DNA of 21,222 nucleotides from a virus. Positions 128 through 18,642 of this stretch are shown here, piece by piece. Below the pieces are notes generated by a model. It ran no database searches, was not told where the DNA came from, and saw only the letters and a list, made by a program, of their open reading frames with translations. Made by a program: the position numbers and the translations under genes. The stretch is from IMG/VR virus record IMGVR_UViG_3300025070_000289, positions 1 to 21,222 of that record, one strand, 5' to 3'. How positions within the stretch are numbered: the first letter of the stretch is position 1; each line of letters begins with the position of its first letter.

Positions 128-1472
128 TAAAACTATAGATGAGTTAACAAGTGATAAGCTAGCTCTAGAAGGGAATGTATCTACATTAGAACAAGATAAA
201 GTTGCTCTGCAAGCTACGTACGATGCGGATATTGGTGCTAAAGATACCGAGATAAACGAGCTAACCACTAGCATAACTGCATTAGGCGGTCAGATTAACG
301 AGCTATCAACTGCTGCTTTAGCTGATGATGAAACAATAGCAGATAGAGAAGCATCTATAGCAGACCTCACAGAACAAAAAGAAGATTTAGAAACTGATTT
401 AGCTACAGCAGAACAAGCTAGAGCAGATCTGGAAGCTACGTACGATGCGGATATCGGTGCTAAAAATACTGCTATAGATGAGCTAAACACTAGCATAGCT
501 ACGTTAAACACCACCATTGAAAATCAAGCAGGTACTATAGACGAGCAGTCAGGAACTATTACTGATTTAAGTACTGCCCTTGAGACTACTGCCGAGATTT
601 TAGGAGTACCCTCTAACTTAGTTACACAGGAAGATATAGACCTAGTAACTGCCTACTTGGCAGGTGTGGAGCTAGCTCAGGACAAAGTAGATGGCATGAC
701 GCGTTACGACGTAACTGGGCAGGATGGTTTAGTTACGCAAGAAGACTTGGCTTTGTTGACAAATGCGTATACACTTGGGGACTATACAGGTTTTGATCCT
801 GACGCAGATTTTAACCCCGCAACGGGCACATATTTAACCATAGAAGAGAAAGCTGCTGAGATAGCGGCCCTTAAAGAGTATGAAAATGATTTAGTGGAAG
901 CAATATCGGGAAAAGATTTTGAGATAGATACCCTTATACAGGATGCGGAAGCTAGAGAGATAGAGTATGAAAATGATTTAGTGGAAGCAATATCGGGAAA
1001 AGATTTTGAGATAGATACCCTTATACAGGATGCGGAAGCTAGAGAGATAGAGTATGAAAATGATTTAGTGGAAGCAATATCGGAACAGACTAAAAAGGTA
1101 ACAAGTGCCACACAAACTCAGATCCAAGAAGGAGTTGATGAGATAAAAGAGAAAGAGGAAGAGAAGCGAAAAGCTAACTTCCTAGAGTCGTTAACTGCTC
1201 CGGGGCGAAGAGTAGACGTAGAGACTCCCGACCCCGCGGTCATACAATATGAATACGATATTTCAGGAGACAGTATTTTTGCAACCCCTGAACAAGAAGC
1301 GGCTTATGAGCAACGCAGTCCGTACGCGCTTCAAGACAGTCAAGATAACCCATACGGAGATAGTTTAATCTCTAAGATACAAGATAGACTTCAGAAACAA
1401 CAAGGTTTAGCTTCTGGGGGAGCGGTTAAAAACAAAACAAACGAGATCCTACGGATACTTGGAGAAAGGTAA
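1..1472 (+). CDS. Long coiled-coil repeat virion protein (tail fibre/fibre-like), 5' end missing
   Basis: The frame is open from base 3, with no stop before TAA at 1470-1472, so the gene starts left of the window and at least 489 residues are visible. A TTG at 657 could be taken as a start but is internal. The first ~190 residues are rich in Asp, Glu, Thr, Ala and Leu with regularly spaced hydrophobics, as in a long coiled coil, and are built from DNA repeats. A short dockerin/EF-hand-like segment follows (708-746), then a second coiled-coil block of 29-residue repeats (876-1083). The C-terminal tail carries LASGGAV, a motif echoed in the next two genes. It abuts the following ATG with no gap. 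An elongated fibre or other structural protein is inferred from repeats and neighbours; no family was recognised with certainty. Confidence 0.75.
   Translation, partial: DLEATYDADIGAKNTAIDELNTSIATLNTTIENQAGTIDEQSKTIDELTSDKLALEGNVSTLEQDKVALQATYDADIGAKDTEINELTTSITALGGQINELSTAALADDETIADREASIADLTEQKEDLETDLATAEQARADLEATYDADIGAKNTAIDELNTSIATLNTTIENQAGTIDEQSGTITDLSTALETTAEILGVPSNLVTQEDIDLVTAYLAGVELAQDKVDGMTRYDVTGQDGLVTQEDLALLTNAYTLGDYTGFDPDADFNPATGTYLTIEEKAAEIAALKEYENDLVEAISGKDFEIDTLIQDAEAREIEYENDLVEAISGKDFEIDTLIQDAEAREIEYENDLVEAISEQTKKVTSATQTQIQEGVDEIKEKEEEKRKANFLESLTAPGRRVDVETPDPAVIQYEYDISGDSIFATPEQEAAYEQRSPYALQDSQDNPYGDSLISKIQDRLQKQQGLASGGAVKNKTNEILRILGER
211..290 (+). repeat. Diverged copy of the coiled-coil repeat unit
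   Basis: This stretch begins with the same 20 bases seen at 10-29 and 433-452 and continues with clear but imperfect similarity (GATATTGGTGCTAAAGATAC against GATATCGGTGCTAAAAATAC). At protein level it starts with the same ATYDADIGAK unit. It lies 201 bp after copy 1 and 222 bp before copy 2; both offsets are multiples of three. Confidence 0.8.
424..550 (+). repeat. 127-bp direct repeat, copy 2
   Basis: Exact copy of bases 1-127, in the same frame. Identity stops at 550, where the first copy continues with TCTAAAAC and this one with TCAGGAAC at the boundary. Near-perfect identity over 127 bp inside a gene implies recent duplication or ongoing recombination. Confidence 0.95.
708..746 (+). other. 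Dockerin/EF-hand-like loop in the fibre-like protein
   Basis: The codons read DVTGQDGLVTQED followed by LALL, which resembles a dockerin-type calcium loop plus exiting helix (family consensus roughly D-x-N-G-D-G-x-V-x-x-x-D-L). It has one residue more than the usual 12-residue loop. A second LVTQEDIDL stretch lies about 25 residues upstream without the acidic loop, suggesting a degenerate paired module. Calcium binding is inferred only. Confidence 0.45.
876..1083 (+). repeat. 87-bp tandem repeat, about 2.4 copies
   Basis: Two full identical units occupy 876-962 and 963-1049, with a partial third from 1050 to about 1083. Each encodes 29 residues beginning EYENDLVEAIS and ending EAREI. The unit keeps the frame and has a coiled-coil-like charge pattern. 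The identity of the copies indicates recent tandem expansion inside the gene. Confidence 0.95.
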
Positions 1473-11931: not shown

Positions 11932-12147
11932 TTATGTTGTACGCCATATACGTACTCCTAACTTACCACTTTCTATGGTGGTCTTGGCTTTATACTTCCA
12001 GCCTTTTCTTTTGAATATCACATTAACTTGTTCTCGTGTCTTACGTGCGTTTATGCAAGGCACGAACACTGAAGCGCCAACTCCCATTTTGTCCCAACGT
12101 ACAATAATCCGTACGCCATCAGGTGCTATGTCATCAAGTTTCCGCAT
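11932..12147 (-). CDS. Small basic hypothetical protein (71 aa)
   Basis: The ATG at 12147 lies 14 bases inside the end of the primase-helicase gene, with GAAGAAG just before it, so translation is probably coupled. An ATG that would overlap the primase stop as TGATG leads straight to a stop codon and was excluded. The protein is rich in Arg, Lys and Val with an alternating pattern (GVRIIVRWDKMG, ASVFVPCINARKT, GVRIWRTT) that suggests a small alpha/beta fold. I have an impression of similar short phage proteins but no function. It is the last gene before the terminator. Confidence 0.7.
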   Translation of the reverse strand: MRKLDDIAPDGVRIIVRWDKMGVGASVFVPCINARKTREQVNVIFKRKGWKYKAKTTIESGKLGVRIWRTT

Positions 12148-14944
12148 CTTCTTCTATATCAACCGCAGAACAATCTATGCAGAACACATGAGTTAGAGGC
12201 ATCTTTGTTGATGTACCTTTAGTAAGCCTTATCTTTACATACTTACCCTTGAACTTAGCTTTAAGCTCTTCTATCGTAGAAGTGTAGTTTATCTGTTGCG
12301 CACCACACCACGATTTCAACACTTTAGGTATCACGTATAACTTCTTAACATCAGTCTCATACCTTCCTACTAGCTTGTTGCGAGGGTCAGACTCGGGTAT
12401 TACTAAGTCGTCCATACCATTACCGTGGCCCTTGCGCATATCATCAGTGCTTTTGATTTTTAGTATGCTACCCCAATGCTCGTGCACAAAGTCGTTCAAT
12501 AAATCTGCCGTAGAAGACATTAGATCGTTAGACGTAGCACGGTTCTCTTGTAATAGTTTAAGAACATACTTAAAAAACTTCTCAGTGTCATAGTCAATTA
12601 GCCCTATGCGTTTAGCGATCAACATACCTGTAACCGATGCAGTAGCGCCTGCTGACCAGAACCTATCTTGTGCTGTAAGTCCTGCGGCTTTATCTAACTT
12701 CTGTTGCACTTCTATTAACAGGCGTTGTACTTCTTCTATGTTATCCATAACCCACTGCATGTAGATAACTCCTGCTGTACCGTACGTGTTCTCAGCGCGA
12801 GTAGCGAATGCATCTGTAAGGTGTTTAGTCTTAGATGCATCAAATAACTTTACTGCCCTAGTTTCTAGCATACGAGCCGCTTCGGCCTTCGGGGCATTCT
12901 TGAAAGTGCTGATACGTTCTATCACACTAGTGTTGCCTGTAGATACAGATAACAAACTCCAAGGCTCACCACGTGTCCTTTCTGTATTAGAGTTACCTGA
13001 CATACGATTACGTTGCTTACCGCTAGTTAACTGATACACAAGGTCAGATAGTTGTTCACCCTTACCATTAGTTAACTCGTCAATATATAAAGGTAGGTTC
13101 TTGTATACCTCACCACGCAACATAACTGAGTTACGAGTATCCTTGGCATCAACTACTAACTGCTTTGGGTTGCCCCAAACAGACGCTCCTACGTACATAG
13201 CGGTGGTCTTACCTAACCCAGAGTCCTTACTATGCACGTGGAAGCCCGAACATGAGACTGGCATAAGCGCCATAAGGGGTGAACCGAAAGAAGTAGCTAC
13301 CATGTACTGATGTAACTCAAAGCCATCTCTGTTGTAGAAATTAGCCATATCCTTCCATTGTTCCAGAGAACCTTTAGGCTTAAACGCGCTCATCAAACCT
13401 GCTGTTGCCTGTGATGGTGGGTTACTCTTAACACCATTTTTTGATATTTCTTGATTGCCTACAACAAACGCATCATGGTTATCATCAGTCCAACCAAATT
13501 GAATGCGAGCCTTGTCGGCTTTTGTAGTAGCCTGTAACTCGTTAATCCAAGTAGTCATATAAGTCATAAGTTTATCCATCTTTGTTACTGCCACGCCTTG
13601 CATGGACATTTGCTTTCTAAATTCTTCTCGCGAGGTTATAGCTGTAAGAGGTACAGTGAACTCACGCACGCCATCTTGTGGTAGGTGTAAACGTATTACC
13701 ACAACTTCACCAAGATCTACATCTACAATACGGTTCACGATATAAATGTCGTTGTGGTATATAAGTTCTTCGTCTGGTTCGCCTTCATCGTTAGATGTGC
13801 GTATATAAACACCACCATTATTAGCGCCCCTAAAGTAGGGCTTAGGGTATGTCGGAATCACATACGTAGTAGTAGGAGTATTCGGTAAGTCCAACGCAGG
13901 TACTTCTACTACATTATCTTCTGGCGTAGCTTCTCTTACACTGCTACCCAACGATATGGGAGACTTTATCTTGCCCCAGTGCGGACATTGTGTACATACG
14001 TCAGGCTTAAACTCATCAAAGTGGGAGCACAGGTAAGGCCCTTTAATCTTATCGAACTTATCCTGTGTCTGTTCTGGAGAATATTCAGGGTGGTTCTTAG
14101 ACATAACGTGGGCGGCTTTCTTACCATCAGAACAGAACTTAGCAATAGATAATCCTGCACGCCATATAGGTTCGCTACACTCATCTTGATTAACTACTAT
14201 GTCAACCAACTGCGCACAGCTAGATTCTCTAGTAATAATATCTTTGAACTTGTGTTGCTTGTTGCCCATCAACGCTTCCATCATAGCGGTGGCAGGTTGT
14301 GACTCTATTTTCTGAGGTACTGGTATCTGGTCAGCACCAATCAACTTAGCAAACGCGTCAAGGCTTACAGGCTCAGGTACGTGTTCACTATAAAATTCAA
14401 CGGGGGATGGTGGCTCAGTCTTGTGGTTGTGTGTCGTTGGTATGCGCAGTACCCTAGCCGCATCGGCAGTTACTGATGGGTCAATTGTAAACCCATGATT
14501 CTTACACAACTGTTTCAAGTGATCTGCAACAGGCTTCCAATCGTCCCTGCTAACAGCTTCAGACAAAGGCCAGTAACAATGTACCCCCCTGCCAGAATCA
14601 ACTAGTAGTGGGCGAGGTAATTCAACCTTTTTACAAAATCTTTGTAGGGCTTGAAGACCTTCCTTCTTGGTTGGATAATCTCTGCCTTCCCCGCAGTCGA
14701 TGTCCATAAAGAAAGATTTTAACTGTTTTACGTTGTCAGCTACACGAGAACCACTTTCTTCAAACGTAGCCAGTGCAAAGTATGGGCTATACCCACGAGC
14801 ATCTAGCTTACGTGCTTCTTGTAGTAACGAATCATACGTTGTATGAAACGTTTGTGGTCTATCGTTTTGGCCTAGCTTGACCGCAAATAAACAGTAGTAT
14901 CCTTCATTCCCCGTTACTTTATCGAGAAATACTTCTGCTTCCAT
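12134..14944 (-). CDS. Primase-helicase: AEP-like primase fused to DUF927-type helicase
   Basis: ATG at 14944 with AGGA seven bases upstream; 936 residues. The N-terminal part looks like an archaeo-eukaryotic-type primase: FFMDIDCG (D81, D83), the SGRGVHCYWP motif (117-126) and RVLRIPTTHNHK (164-175). A Cys/His cluster follows, with C306, H308, C317, C320 and H322 as possible zinc ligands. The C-terminal half resembles DUF927 helicases: SKDSGLGKTT Walker A (K579), LYIDEL Walker B (D622, E623) and a sensor-like SVSTGNTS (666-673). The Walker A lacks the usual first Gly. It probably primes and unwinds DNA for the neighbouring polymerase, replacing T7 gp4. Function of both halves is inferred from motifs; the DUF927 assignment is from pattern memory. 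Confidence 0.82.
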   Translation of the reverse strand: MEAEVFLDKVTGNEGYYCLFAVKLGQNDRPQTFHTTYDSLLQEARKLDARGYSPYFALATFEESGSRVADNVKQLKSFFMDIDCGEGRDYPTKKEGLQALQRFCKKVELPRPLLVDSGRGVHCYWPLSEAVSRDDWKPVADHLKQLCKNHGFTIDPSVTADAARVLRIPTTHNHKTEPPSPVEFYSEHVPEPVSLDAFAKLIGADQIPVPQKIESQPATAMMEALMGNKQHKFKDIITRESSCAQLVDIVVNQDECSEPIWRAGLSIAKFCSDGKKAAHVMSKNHPEYSPEQTQDKFDKIKGPYLCSHFDEFKPDVCTQCPHWGKIKSPISLGSSVREATPEDNVVEVPALDLPNTPTTTYVIPTYPKPYFRGANNGGVYIRTSNDEGEPDEELIYHNDIYIVNRIVDVDLGEVVVIRLHLPQDGVREFTVPLTAITSREEFRKQMSMQGVAVTKMDKLMTYMTTWINELQATTKADKARIQFGWTDDNHDAFVVGNQEISKNGVKSNPPSQATAGLMSAFKPKGSLEQWKDMANFYNRDGFELHQYMVATSFGSPLMALMPVSCSGFHVHSKDSGLGKTTAMYVGASVWGNPKQLVVDAKDTRNSVMLRGEVYKNLPLYIDELTNGKGEQLSDLVYQLTSGKQRNRMSGNSNTERTRGEPWSLLSVSTGNTSVIERISTFKNAPKAEAARMLETRAVKLFDASKTKHLTDAFATRAENTYGTAGVIYMQWVMDNIEEVQRLLIEVQQKLDKAAGLTAQDRFWSAGATASVTGMLIAKRIGLIDYDTEKFFKYVLKLLQENRATSNDLMSSTADLLNDFVHEHWGSILKIKSTDDMRKGHGNGMDDLVIPESDPRNKLVGRYETDVKKLYVIPKVLKSWCGAQQINYTSTIEELKAKFKGKYVKIRLTKGTSTKMPLTHVFCIDCSAVDIEEDAET

Positions 14945-15026: not shown

Positions 15027-15734
15027 CTAGTCGTCCCAGTCGTCTACGATTGATGCAATATCAGCGTCAGACTTTTTTGGTTTTGGTGTTGCTTTTTTAC
15101 TGACTTTTTTAGGTTCAGGAGTTTTTTCTTCCCCGAACTCAGCTTCAATAACATTAGTTGCTGATTTAGTTTCTACAACTTCAAAAGGATTATCTTCAGA
15201 AGAGAACTCAAACCCACCTTCAACAGCGGAGAAAGGTGATGATGCTTCCATTGGTACGTACTTAATAACCTGTACCGCTTTCAAACGCAGTGAGATTCCT
15301 GCTTCACGCATGTTGTAGGGCACAAATATAACCGCAACATTAACTGTACTGCCAGTAGTAAGCATGAAATCTTCAGGTAGTTTAACGCCTTTGGAATCAT
15401 ATTGTACAGGTTTAAATGTAGCTTCCTTACCATAAGCACCTTTAAGGGTAGCTTTATAAGTATACATACCATCATCATCTTTGGCGAATGGCATCTCAAC
15501 TTTCTCAGGCCAACCTTTTTCTTTACGTGCTTCATACGCCTGACACATACCCAAGTATAATTCTTTAGCTTGGTCTTTGGTCATACGAAACTTCATCTCG
15601 TATTTAGCGCCATCTTCAAATGGGTCACATGGTACAGTACGATTCTCAGCGTTATCGAACTTGTATGTTTTGTTAATACGAGGCCACTGAGCCTCAACGT
15701 TTTGTATCATAAAAGTGCTATTTTGATTAGCCAT
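15027..15734 (-). CDS. Single-stranded DNA-binding protein, T7 gp2.5-like
   Basis: ATG at 15734 with AAGG upstream; 235 residues. The core (~1-165) has the beta-rich, aromatic-spaced character of a gp2.5-type OB-fold protein (AQWPRINKTYKF, GISLRLKAVQV). It is followed by SPFSAVEGGFEF (166-177), a Pro/Lys hinge and a strongly acidic C-terminus ending DDWDD. Acidic tails of phage SSBs contact polymerase and helicase; here the end is WDD rather than gp2.5's terminal Phe. The gene lies between its own paralogue and the primase-helicase, fitting a replication complex. The family call rests on context, core pattern and tail; no alignment was done. Confidence 0.75.
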   Translation of the reverse strand: MANQNSTFMIQNVEAQWPRINKTYKFDNAENRTVPCDPFEDGAKYEMKFRMTKDQAKELYLGMCQAYEARKEKGWPEKVEMPFAKDDDGMYTYKATLKGAYGKEATFKPVQYDSKGVKLPEDFMLTTGSTVNVAVIFVPYNMREAGISLRLKAVQVIKYVPMEASSPFSAVEGGFEFSSEDNPFEVVETKSATNVIEAEFGEEKTPEPKKVSKKATPKPKKSDADIASIVDDWDD

Positions 15735-15754
15735 AACTATTTACCTTAAATAAA

Positions 15755-16414
15755 TTAATTCGCGTTTATATCAAACCCACCTTCCACGCTACCAAAGGGT
15801 GATGGTTCATTAGTAACAGGGACGAATGATGTGATAGCACGTTTAGTGTCTTCGTGTACCACCATCTCTGATACTTTAATCCCCAACCCCGAGTCGAGAG
15901 GTCGAACAGGTTTAAAATAAAGTTTTGGGACAACGCTGTCTTTATCAAACGTAATGTTTGTGACAACGCTAGTAACTGATGTATCGTGCGCAGATAGATA
16001 GCGAGCATATTCTTGCATGCCCATATTACCATTAACTACCCTACCAAATATTGAACTGGCAGGTATCTGCAACTGATACACCTCATCGAGGTTTCCCTCA
16101 AATACAACTGCAAGGCGCTGTTGAAACCGACAAGCCCTGCCACCATTCTCTCCTGAACCACGTACGTTTTGTGTGCAGTCCATACACCTACGTGCTTGCA
16201 CGTTATCTTCTGATACATTCGGGGATGGTGTTTGTGTGTCGTCTGACCAACATACTGGGGCAGTAGACTTATTAGGGTCAAACTGATTACCAAAATATGA
16301 TCTAGACACAGGTGCGGCATTCACAATGATTACGTTTACAGCTTCGCCAATAGTAGTTTGTTCGCCACCATCAACATCTGTAAATACACCACCACGTATG
16401 CTTAACCTTTTCAC
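15755..16414 (-). CDS. Cysteine-containing SSB-like paralogue (219 aa), unknown role
   Basis: GTG start at 16414 overlaps the previous TAG by one base (TAGTG) and is preceded by GAGGA, supporting the start. The C-terminal part ends with SFVPVTNEPSPFGSVEGGFDI, closely matching KYVPMEASSPFSAVEGGFEF in the next gene, and both are preceded by a similar beta strand, so the two are probably duplicates of one SSB-like fold. Unlike its neighbour it has four well-placed cysteines, C55, C77, C80 and C95 (spacing x21, x2, x14), around CWSDD, CMDC and GGRACRFQQR, suggesting a zinc site. It lacks the acidic tail. It may be a recombination or replication accessory DNA-binding protein. The function is unproven. 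Confidence 0.65.
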   Translation of the reverse strand: MKRLSIRGGVFTDVDGGEQTTIGEAVNVIIVNAAPVSRSYFGNQFDPNKSTAPVCWSDDTQTPSPNVSEDNVQARRCMDCTQNVRGSGENGGRACRFQQRLAVVFEGNLDEVYQLQIPASSIFGRVVNGNMGMQEYARYLSAHDTSVTSVVTNITFDKDSVVPKLYFKPVRPLDSGLGIKVSEMVVHEDTKRAITSFVPVTNEPSPFGSVEGGFDINAN

Positions 16415-16659
16415 TAGAAATCCTCATCTAGGGTTTCAGGGTTAAACTCAAAGTCACTTACAGCTTCCTGAACTACCGAGTCTTTATTGGTATTCAAAAA
16501 GGCGTTTTCAATCCCTTGAAGGTTATAACGATAAGTGTTACCTATCTTTACATATAAGTCTTCGGGTATCTTACCTTGACGTAACCACTGACGTACGGTG
16601 TGCTTAGATACACTAAACTTATCCGCTACATCACCAATTGGTACAAAATTATCTGACAT
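16414..16659 (-). CDS. Small helix-turn-helix protein (MerR/excisionase-like)
   Basis: ATG at 16659 overlaps the upstream TAA by one base (TAATG), with GAGGAG six bases before. The 81 residues begin FVPIGDVADKFSVSKHTVRQWLRQGKI-like sequence (about 6-31), a typical MerR/Xis superfamily HTH, then a wing-like VKIGNTYRYN and an acidic tail. Size fits excisionases and small phage regulators. No integrase is present in the window, so excision is not supported; a transcription or replication regulator is equally possible. Translation is probably coupled to both neighbours. Confidence 0.75.
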   Translation of the reverse strand: MSDNFVPIGDVADKFSVSKHTVRQWLRQGKIPEDLYVKIGNTYRYNLQGIENAFLNTNKDSVVQEAVSDFEFNPETLDEDF

Positions 16660-17057
16660 TACTTTCTCCTCACTGATACAACATATTCAGAATCTACGTT
16701 AAGACCTTTAGGTACAAGGTCGGGGTTCTCTTCCAAAAACTGCTTCATATTGCTCTGATTGACACGCTTGTCTAGCAGTTCAGGTGCTTCTTGCTGAAGT
16801 ACAAACTCATGCATAGAAGACCAATCACTAGTCCAATAACGTGTTCTAGCAGAACGGTAAAACAATCCCGCAGAAGTCCTTACACTATCGACACCTTGAT
16901 CTTCACAGTAGTCCAGTAAAGCACGCTTCACCTTATCTAGCTGATCGGATAACTCAGCATCCTTCTCTTTAAACTCTGCTGATAACTCACTACGCTTATC
17001 TTTTATCTTCAAATAGACAGTAGTTAGCTTCTCAGCGTTCATTTTTCCTTCGCTCAT
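16659..17057 (-). CDS. Coiled-coil phage protein, faintly Gam-like (132 aa)
   Basis: I chose the ATG at 17057 because AAGGAG sits six bases before it; the longer frame to 17135 would overlap the helicase end and lacks such a site. Residues ~8-55 are a charged coiled coil (KIKDKRSELSAEFKEKDAEL). After it come GLFYRSARTRYW (64-75), a helical stretch and a VPKGLNV turn near the C-terminus before a short basic end. The order coiled coil, G-x-x-x-R strand, helix and P-x-G-hydrophobic resembles the Mu Gam DNA-end-binding layout, but this is an impression only. It is encoded between helicase and HTH genes and probably belongs to DNA metabolism. Confidence 0.65.
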   Translation of the reverse strand: MSEGKMNAEKLTTVYLKIKDKRSELSAEFKEKDAELSDQLDKVKRALLDYCEDQGVDSVRTSAGLFYRSARTRYWTSDWSSMHEFVLQQEAPELLDKRVNQSNMKQFLEENPDLVPKGLNVDSEYVVSVRRK

Positions 17058-17063
17058 CTTTCG

Positions 17064-17069
17064 CTCCTT
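17064..17069 (-). promoter_or_regulatory. Ribosome binding site deciding the 17057 start
   Basis: AAGGAG on the minus strand ends six bases before the ATG at 17057. It is the strongest Shine-Dalgarno match in the vicinity and argues against the 26-residue N-terminal extension. Confidence 0.75.
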
Positions 17070-17085
17070 AACTAAAGGGACAGTC

Positions 17086-17114
17086 AAGATAGCGTATGAT
17101 TGTGGGCTAGTCAA
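17086..17114 (-). promoter_or_regulatory. Candidate sigma70-type promoter overlapping helicase stop
   Basis: On the minus strand TTGACT (17114-17109) and TATCTT (17091-17086) are separated by 17 bases, close to the bacterial consensus. The -35 box includes the last codons of the helicase gene. It would drive the coiled-coil/HTH/SSB genes separately. Chance occurrence in AT-moderate DNA is quite possible. Confidence 0.35.
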
Positions 17115-18642
17115 GTATTTCTTTATATAAATCAATCATTCTTGTGTGAACGTCTAGCCTATTATCTAGTAACGAGTAAACACGTCTTTCTACGTGCGAT
17201 CCTTGTAGGTGAACAACGGTACATTTTTGATCTTGCCCTGACCTGTGCACCCTAGCATTAGCTTGCGCGTACGTTTCTAACGAACTGGTTGGCGACCACC
17301 ATACAACCGTGTTAGCCGCTGTAAGTGTTACCCCGTGTGCCGCTGACTGTGGTTGGATAACTAAAACTTTAGGGTCATCTTGTTCTTGAAACCGTTTAAA
17401 TATGTCTGTTCGTTTGGGTGCAGGTACATCGCCATTAATAATTTCAGTAGTGATACCATCTTTGCGTAACCTGTCAGTGAGTAACTGTATGGTGTGTCTG
17501 AACGGCACGAATACTAATACTTTCTTACTAGATTCATCAATTACTTCTCGCAGTACCTTATACCGTTTAGTTATATCAAACTCTAATGAATCACCAGTAT
17601 CGGTATAAACAGCACCAGAAGATATTTGTAGTAGCTTATTCATGTTAACTGCCGCATTAGCCGCAGTGATTTGTTCACCTGCCGCTTGCATGATCATCTT
17701 ACTCTTCAATTCTTTATAGTATTTCTTTTGTTGGGGGGTCATATCTACTTCACGATGCACATATACCATAGGTGGTAAGTCTAAACACTCATCTTTTGTG
17801 AACCGTATGGCAGGTTGCAATGCTTTATGCACTACATCAGTAGCATTTTCTTTCGGTATCCATTTGAAGTTAGTTATCTTTTGCATAACCATATCCCTAA
17901 ACGTACCAAAGAAACGCGGTACTCCAACAGGGTTAACTAACTTAGCAATGCCATACGCATCGGTAGGACTCTGTGCCGCAGGTGTACCCGTCATCATCCA
18001 AAGCCACGTGCTTTTATCCATTAGTTTGTTTAGCGTCTTCCATCTTTTAGTCTGTACGTTCTTATAGTGTGTAGCTTCGTCAACAATTATTAAGTCAAAC
18101 CCACCTTCTTTAACTACGTCTTGTACAATCTCCACACCATCGTAATTTATTATTACAAACTCTGCTCCGTTCTCAATTATCTCTCTGCGCTTCTTCTTTG
18201 AACCATAGGCTACGTCTACCTTGCGGTGCATGGCAAAACTAAACAAGTCATTGCGCCACGCTGATTCCATGATAGATAGAGGACATATAACTAATACTCT
18301 ATTTATCTTACCTTGCTCTAGTAAGTAATCTGCCGCCCATATAGCACTGGCTGTCTTGCCTGTACCCTGCTCATTAAAACAGAAGGCTCTCTTATTTAGC
18401 GTGAAGAAACTTGCAGTAGTCTTCTGGTGATCGTATGGGTCATACCTACCTGTCCACTCGTACCTACCTTCTATTGGTGAGGGTGCATTGATACCAATGT
18501 TTCTTAATACCTGCACTTCGTCAACTCCCCAACTGACTATAACTTCATGTTCTGATAACGTCTTACTCTTTGGTATACAACTCGTCACTTTACCCGGATT
18601 ACGTAAGTTAAGTAATAAAGCCCTGTTATCTACGATCTTCAA
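17107..18642 (-). CDS. SNF2/SF2-type DNA helicase
   Basis: TTG start at 18642 with GGAG eight bases before it; 511 residues. Motifs appear in order: PYDHQ (69-73), EQGTGKT Walker A (91-97, K96), DEATH box (188-192), MTGTP motif III (217-221), a second RecA domain with VLVFVPFRHT, SAAHGVTL motif V (433-440) and QANARVHRSGQ motif VI (460-470). The last is characteristic of the SNF2 group rather than DEAD-box or RecQ. The usual N- and C-terminal extra domains of cellular SNF2 proteins are absent. It probably unwinds or remodels DNA during phage replication or recombination. A structured 223-nt leader lies upstream. Confidence 0.92.
   Translation of the reverse strand: MKIVDNRALLLNLRNPGKVTSCIPKSKTLSEHEVIVSWGVDEVQVLRNIGINAPSPIEGRYEWTGRYDPYDHQKTTASFFTLNKRAFCFNEQGTGKTASAIWAADYLLEQGKINRVLVICPLSIMESAWRNDLFSFAMHRKVDVAYGSKKKRREIIENGAEFVIINYDGVEIVQDVVKEGGFDLIIVDEATHYKNVQTKRWKTLNKLMDKSTWLWMMTGTPAAQSPTDAYGIAKLVNPVGVPRFFGTFRDMVMQKITNFKWIPKENATDVVHKALQPAIRFTKDECLDLPPMVYVHREVDMTPQQKKYYKELKSKMIMQAAGEQITAANAAVNMNKLLQISSGAVYTDTGDSLEFDITKRYKVLREVIDESSKKVLVFVPFRHTIQLLTDRLRKDGITTEIINGDVPAPKRTDIFKRFQEQDDPKVLVIQPQSAAHGVTLTAANTVVWWSPTSSLETYAQANARVHRSGQDQKCTVVHLQGSHVERRVYSLLDNRLDVHTRMIDLYKEILD

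Follow-up and report, generated by a model that had tools for sequence, protein, structure and literature searches.

T4 gp32 is a single polypeptide in which an OB-type barrel, a Cys metal site (His-Cys3) and an acidic C-terminal tail are combined, and in RPA several different OB barrels share the binding of ssDNA, the OB-C barrel of RPA70 having a four-Cys zinc ribbon. The phiC31 gp3 protein is a recombination directionality factor whose gene is located among replication genes and for which a replication function has also been reported. In the crystals of T7 gp2.5, Enc34 ORF6 and DUF2815 proteins, the C-termini rest on the beta sheets of adjacent molecules (PMC5686142). Here we analysed a stretch of 21,222 nucleotides from a marine bacteriophage (IMG/VR record IMGVR_UViG_3300025070_000289, referred to as the window) that encodes a T7 gp2.5-type SSB and, directly upstream of it, a neighbour protein (NB). 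Our main reading, for which a rough probability of 0.55 is given, is that NB and the SSB are unrelated OB-barrel proteins that jointly do the ssDNA-binding job of one replication module, with one tail. The features used below are the following, with positions as in the window:

12134-14944, minus strand: primase/helicase-like protein (phrog_25314, phrog_8841), the first gene past the SSB
15027-15734, minus strand: SSB, 235 aa, T7 gp2.5-type ssDNA-binding protein by profile and predicted fold
15030-15116, minus strand: tail of the SSB, residues 207-235, EPKKVSKK...IVDDWDD; the same segment sits on NB in gp2.5-less phages
15204-15239, minus strand: shared motif of the SSB, SPFSAVEGGFEF, residues 166-177, just past the last barrel strand
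15755-16414, minus strand: NB, 219 aa, GTG start, a relative of PHROG 27714 in its tailless form
15767-15802, minus strand: C-terminal shared motif of NB, SPFGSVEGGFDI, residues 205-216, predicted disordered
16130-16252, minus strand: four-Cys segment of NB, CX21CX2CX14C, forming a loop that links predicted strands 25-33 and 97-105
16250-16252, 16184-16186, 16175-16177 and 16130-16132, minus strand: the NB cysteines C55, C77, C80 and C95, respectively
16414-16659, minus strand: HTH gene, 81 aa, the gene that precedes NB
16659-17135, minus strand: 133-aa gene of the phrog_13900 family, lying between the helicase and NB genes here as well as in relatives
17107-18642, minus strand: SNF2-type helicase (phrog_62), also part of this replication module

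NB and the SSB are encoded on the same strand with a gap of 20 nt, and the TAG stop of the HTH gene overlaps the GTG start of NB (TAGTG). The module in the window runs from the end of DNA polymerase A through an exonuclease-like nuclease, the SNF2 helicase, the phrog_13900 gene, HTH, NB and SSB to the primase/helicase, and the order of NB and SSB is kept in each distinct NB/SSB pair among the loci first examined. It may be noted that phrog_13900 is labelled as a minor head protein (window 16659-17135, L225:3254-3700 and L126:5479-5865), while its gene is part of the replication module in Xp15 and the marine phages, where it has the SNF2 helicase on one side and NB on the other, and in Rollin it immediately precedes NB. 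Because of this position beside helicase and NB, the label is probably wrong. Elsewhere in the window (875-1083), a perfect 87-bp tandem repeat of 2.4 copies (EYENDLVEAISGKDFEIDTLIQDAEAREI) is present in frame within the ORF 657-1472.

As judged from profiles and from its model, the SSB is a member of the T7 gp2.5 family. It matches phrog_112 with an E-value of 4.2e-18 and 1je5 by sequence with 1e-4, and its match to Pfam SBB_T7 (E 1.5e-5) has 25.1 bits, just under the cut-off of 27. The model aligns to 1je5_B over 160 residues (Z 16.3) and also to the Enc34 SSB (5odl, Z 14.2). The acidic C-terminal tail (...DADIASIVDDWDD) is conserved in all complete relatives seen. Related gp2.5 proteins are also present without NB in the Roseobacter phages CRP-831 and CRP-406 (52% and 42% identity).

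NB, on the other hand, belongs by sequence to a separate family. It matches PHROG 27714 (E 7.6e-30, residues 2-184) and PHROG 23155 (E 2e-8), neither of which has an assigned function, and it has no Pfam family match, no match to phrog_112 or SBB_T7 in profile searches and only chance matches when NB profiles are used to search the PDB sequences. The four cysteines were correctly assigned to NB only in the original prediction, the SSB being without such a set. They are invariant in 52 close and 9 distant members (KPP25, Xp15, Rollin, TM3_14A and Effie being among the 9), whereby the four-Cys relatives reach isolated Pseudomonas, Xanthomonas, Rhizobium and Acinetobacter phages, and the site probably holds zinc. 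The AF2 model of NB has a confident beta core (pLDDT about 90), in which strands 108-118 and 150-156 are separated by a helix (133-142); the Cys region 40-95 is a low-confidence loop, and the end 198-219, which contains the shared motif, is disordered. NB is predicted from this model to be an OB-like barrel. OB-containing proteins make up most of its structural list, where phiC31 gp3 is at the top (9teh_I, Z 8.3, rmsd 3.3 over 120 residues, 11% identity), followed by BRCA2 (Z 6.0), Teb1, RPA (Z 4.5-4.7), CST and other OB-containing nucleic-acid proteins, although most values are between 4 and 6 and even 8.3 and 6.0 are near the level of chance arrangements. Foldseek found no match of the model in the PDB below E 0.3. 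T7 gp2.5 and T4 gp32 are absent from the structural list, which does not exclude a likeness, and NB gave no sequence or Foldseek match to T4 gp32.

The match to gp3 brings in another reading of NB, namely that it is an OB-barrel accessory factor like gp3, or a recombination mediator, instead of a general SSB, and that the tail it carries in its solo form (see below) only recruits it to the replisome. That gp3 is the best structural match, sits among replication genes and has a reported role in phage replication would fit this, yet hhalign of the NB alignments against the gp3 family alignment gave a probability of 0.1%, PF18897 (Gp3-like) has no match in the NB relatives tested or in the NB-bearing genomes, and the phages with a tailed NB have no other SSB detected by the searches run. 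We therefore find this reading unlikely. Sequence homology of NB to gp3 was rejected, as no profile similarity was found, and a place of NB in the gp3 family is unsupported by sequence. A functional kinship of NB and gp3 is nevertheless worth testing, from the fold match and from the acidic tips of some gp3-like proteins. These tips read YADEPPF, KFAEEPPF, GEDEPAF and DETPF (L232:3099-3833, which is phiC31 gp3, and L233, L234, L239 and L240). Thus gp3-like recombination directionality factors may be recruited SSB-like proteins, and the weak structural link to NB raises the question whether gp3 derives from an SSB-like protein of replication.

In the original prediction, NB and the SSB were tandem duplicates of which one had gained a metal-bound insert and the other the acidic tail. 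The genes are indeed adjacent, the motif copies are present at residues 166-177 of the SSB and 205-216 of NB as described, and both proteins are predicted to be OB-like barrels. Yet we found no detectable similarity outside the terminal 20 or so residues. The whole proteins have a Smith-Waterman score of 56, which 2 of 2000 shuffles reach and which is above chance solely through the C-terminal stretch, since the cores alone score 29, a value reached by 402 of 1000 shuffles. In the profile-profile comparison of 21 NB with 20 SSB sequences, only NB 192-219 pairs with SSB 151-179 (P 3e-5), and the cores alone do not match (hhalign probability < 0.2%). The strands said to precede the motif, KYVP and SFVP, hold for the SSB, where KYVP closes the last barrel strand (E145-158), but not for NB, where SFVP (196-199) comes after helix 188-194 inside the low-confidence tail of the AF2 model. 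Also the helices are differently placed in the two predicted folds, the main helix of the SSB following strand 44-51 and that of NB following strand 108-118. The proteins are from different families, each of which occurs without the other, and the four cysteines predate the pairing, being invariant across the NB family including the gp2.5-less phages, so that the insert was not gained after a duplication. We consider a tandem duplication highly improbable, and the placing of NB as a gp2.5 paralogue is unsupported by every sequence test. A very old common OB ancestor could still lie behind the two predicted barrels. What stands of the proposed division of labour is a conserved pair with the tail on one protein and a probable metal site on the other, but not its origin by duplication.

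Within all loci scanned, the SPFxxVEGGF motif is present in 189 NB and 187 SSB reading frames and in zero other frames. Its identical residues are mostly encoded by different codons in the two genes, and the codon identity is the same in cognate (0.47) and non-cognate pairs (0.45), because of which we take the motif to be held at the protein level: as far as the codons tell, it is maintained by selection on the peptide and not by DNA copying. Gene conversion as the origin of the shared motif was ruled out on the same values. In one locus (L043:778-2169), NB and SSB have the same DNA sequence over the motif, which is seen in hardly any other pair, and a single exchange between the copies is possible there. 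Motif variants are also matched between partners (VDGF with VDGF, TDGF with TDGF), a suggestive covariation with too few independent changes for statistics. Given the packing of C-termini on the sheet in gp2.5-type crystals, NB could enter gp2.5 assemblies by means of the copied peptide. Most likely, SPFxxVEGGF would allow NB to dock where gp2.5 C-termini dock on a neighbouring gp2.5, and docking would yield mixed NB/gp2.5 assemblies on ssDNA.

The main rival to docking is that SPFxxVEGGF is a short linear motif recognised by one and the same third protein (polymerase, primase or helicase), by which NB and the SSB are co-recruited without mutual contact. This would suit a motif that is disordered at the NB C-terminus, conserved at the protein level in both genes and repeated in the SSB linker, where a second copy (NPF, residues 182-184) follows the shared one, and it would also suit the SPF/DPF-type stretch that the gp2.5-type SSBs of CRP-831 and CRP-406, which have no NB, carry past the barrel. 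However, the tailed NB is without the SPFxxVEGGF motif and would need the same partner, and a C-terminus docked on the sheet of a neighbour is a known habit of gp2.5-type proteins. A common partner is a possibility that we rank below the main reading.

The strongest case for a joint function comes from the tail, which alternates between the two proteins. At loci with an adjacent gp2.5, NB is always tailless, ending in ...INAN or similar, and EPKKV...DDWDD is on the SSB only, which agrees with what was originally seen in the window. In 14 contigs, NB itself, then about 300 aa long, ends in ...EPKKVVKK...DDWDD and is directly followed by the primase, with no gp2.5 in between. This class (L060/L176, which are one contig, L061, and L177-L188) was found by searching with the odd locus L060; contigs that end at or near NB (L025, L130, L149, L165, L066/L189 and L219) were left out of the gp2.5-less count. 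The order is otherwise kept, with nuclease, small ORF, 511-aa helicase, 131/132-aa gene, HTH (listed in L181 and L187), NB and primase. The NB and SSB tails match each other by hhalign of extended alignments with a probability of 98.6 and E 6e-16. Searches of the whole tailed-NB contigs, possibly incomplete and including those of 60.7 and 62.3 kb, gave no match to either of two gp2.5 profiles apart from the NB tail, no PF00436 SSB and no Enc34-type SSB, whereas gp2.5 was clearly detected by such searches in the paired contigs of similar size. It may be noted that the marine sequences are all metagenomic contigs, which may be incomplete, and that some are included more than once.

NB is present and gp2.5 absent also in the isolated phages Rollin, Xp15, KPP25, Effie, MD-2021a and TM3_14A. 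Several of these NB proteins have an acidic or tryptophan tip, with AFAGWDD in Rollin, DDIANKW in Acinetobacter phages and ATGNW in Xp15, but the end in KPP25 is basic. Solo NB proteins also have an N-terminal extension of 35-45 residues (MSDxxxF...LxxSLxxxNDNL, similar in isolates; L060:5887-6000, L187:6001-6100, L126:5881-6000), which is missing from the paired NB. A tree built from the NB cores nests the tailed marine clade within the paired lineages and leaves the isolates outside, as would fit a gp2.5 that lost its core and whose tail became fused to NB. The history with the fewest changes would start from a solo NB, followed by acquisition of gp2.5 and then by loss of the gp2.5 barrel, the tail being joined to NB; separate gains are also possible.

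Since NB takes over the tail of the SSB at the SSB locus when the SSB is missing, it most likely takes over its job. NB is thus probably an SSB-like protein of the T4 gp32 kind, and with its OB barrel, four-Cys (probably zinc) insert and acidic tail it could act as the only SSB of a phage. In the lineage of the window, a gp2.5-type SSB with a gene of its own stands between NB and the sequence that codes for the tail. There gp2.5 alone bears the tail, which would recruit partners, and NB keeps its predicted barrel and ends in a copy of the gp2.5 post-barrel peptide. More tentatively, the two may form one hetero-oligomeric SSB, RPA-like in principle, in which a tailless zinc-OB subunit and a tailed gp2.5 subunit are joined by the copied peptide, the gp2.5 barrel acting as a unit that can enter or leave the place between an ancestral zinc-OB barrel and the tail of the latter. 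Our literature search found no account of such a pair, which is not proof of its absence. At this locus nature would have swapped the interaction tail of an SSB from one barrel to another, unrelated one, by which the contributions of tail and barrel can be separated, and the PHROG 27714 family, which has members in marine viruses as well as in Pseudomonas, Xanthomonas, Acinetobacter and Rhizobium phages, gains a testable function in ssDNA binding.

Compared with the known systems, the pair would resemble RPA in sharing the work between different OB barrels, and RPA chains are among the NB structural matches at a generic OB level, but NB and the SSB are two separate small phage proteins and their complex is a proposal. 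A tailed NB would work like T4 gp32, having barrel, metal site and acidic tail, although its site is CX21CX2CX14C and not His-Cys3, and the paired NB is tailless. The phiC31 gp3 family (PF18897) provides the best structural match to the NB model, is of similar size and is encoded among early replication genes, and several of its homologues end in SSB-like acidic tips; however, cysteines are not conserved within that family and NB has no known link to a serine integrase. With PHROG 27714/23155 (for example KPP25 ORF069), to which it belongs by sequence, NB has the four cysteines in common, but the members from isolated phages stand alone and the paired NB is without their N-terminal extension and tail. 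The SSB, lastly, is like T7 gp2.5 and the Enc34-type SSBs in its barrel, post-barrel peptide, acidic tail and replication-module position, but its tail ends in WDD where theirs end in DF or PF and, unlike them, it is paired with a second, unrelated OB-like protein.
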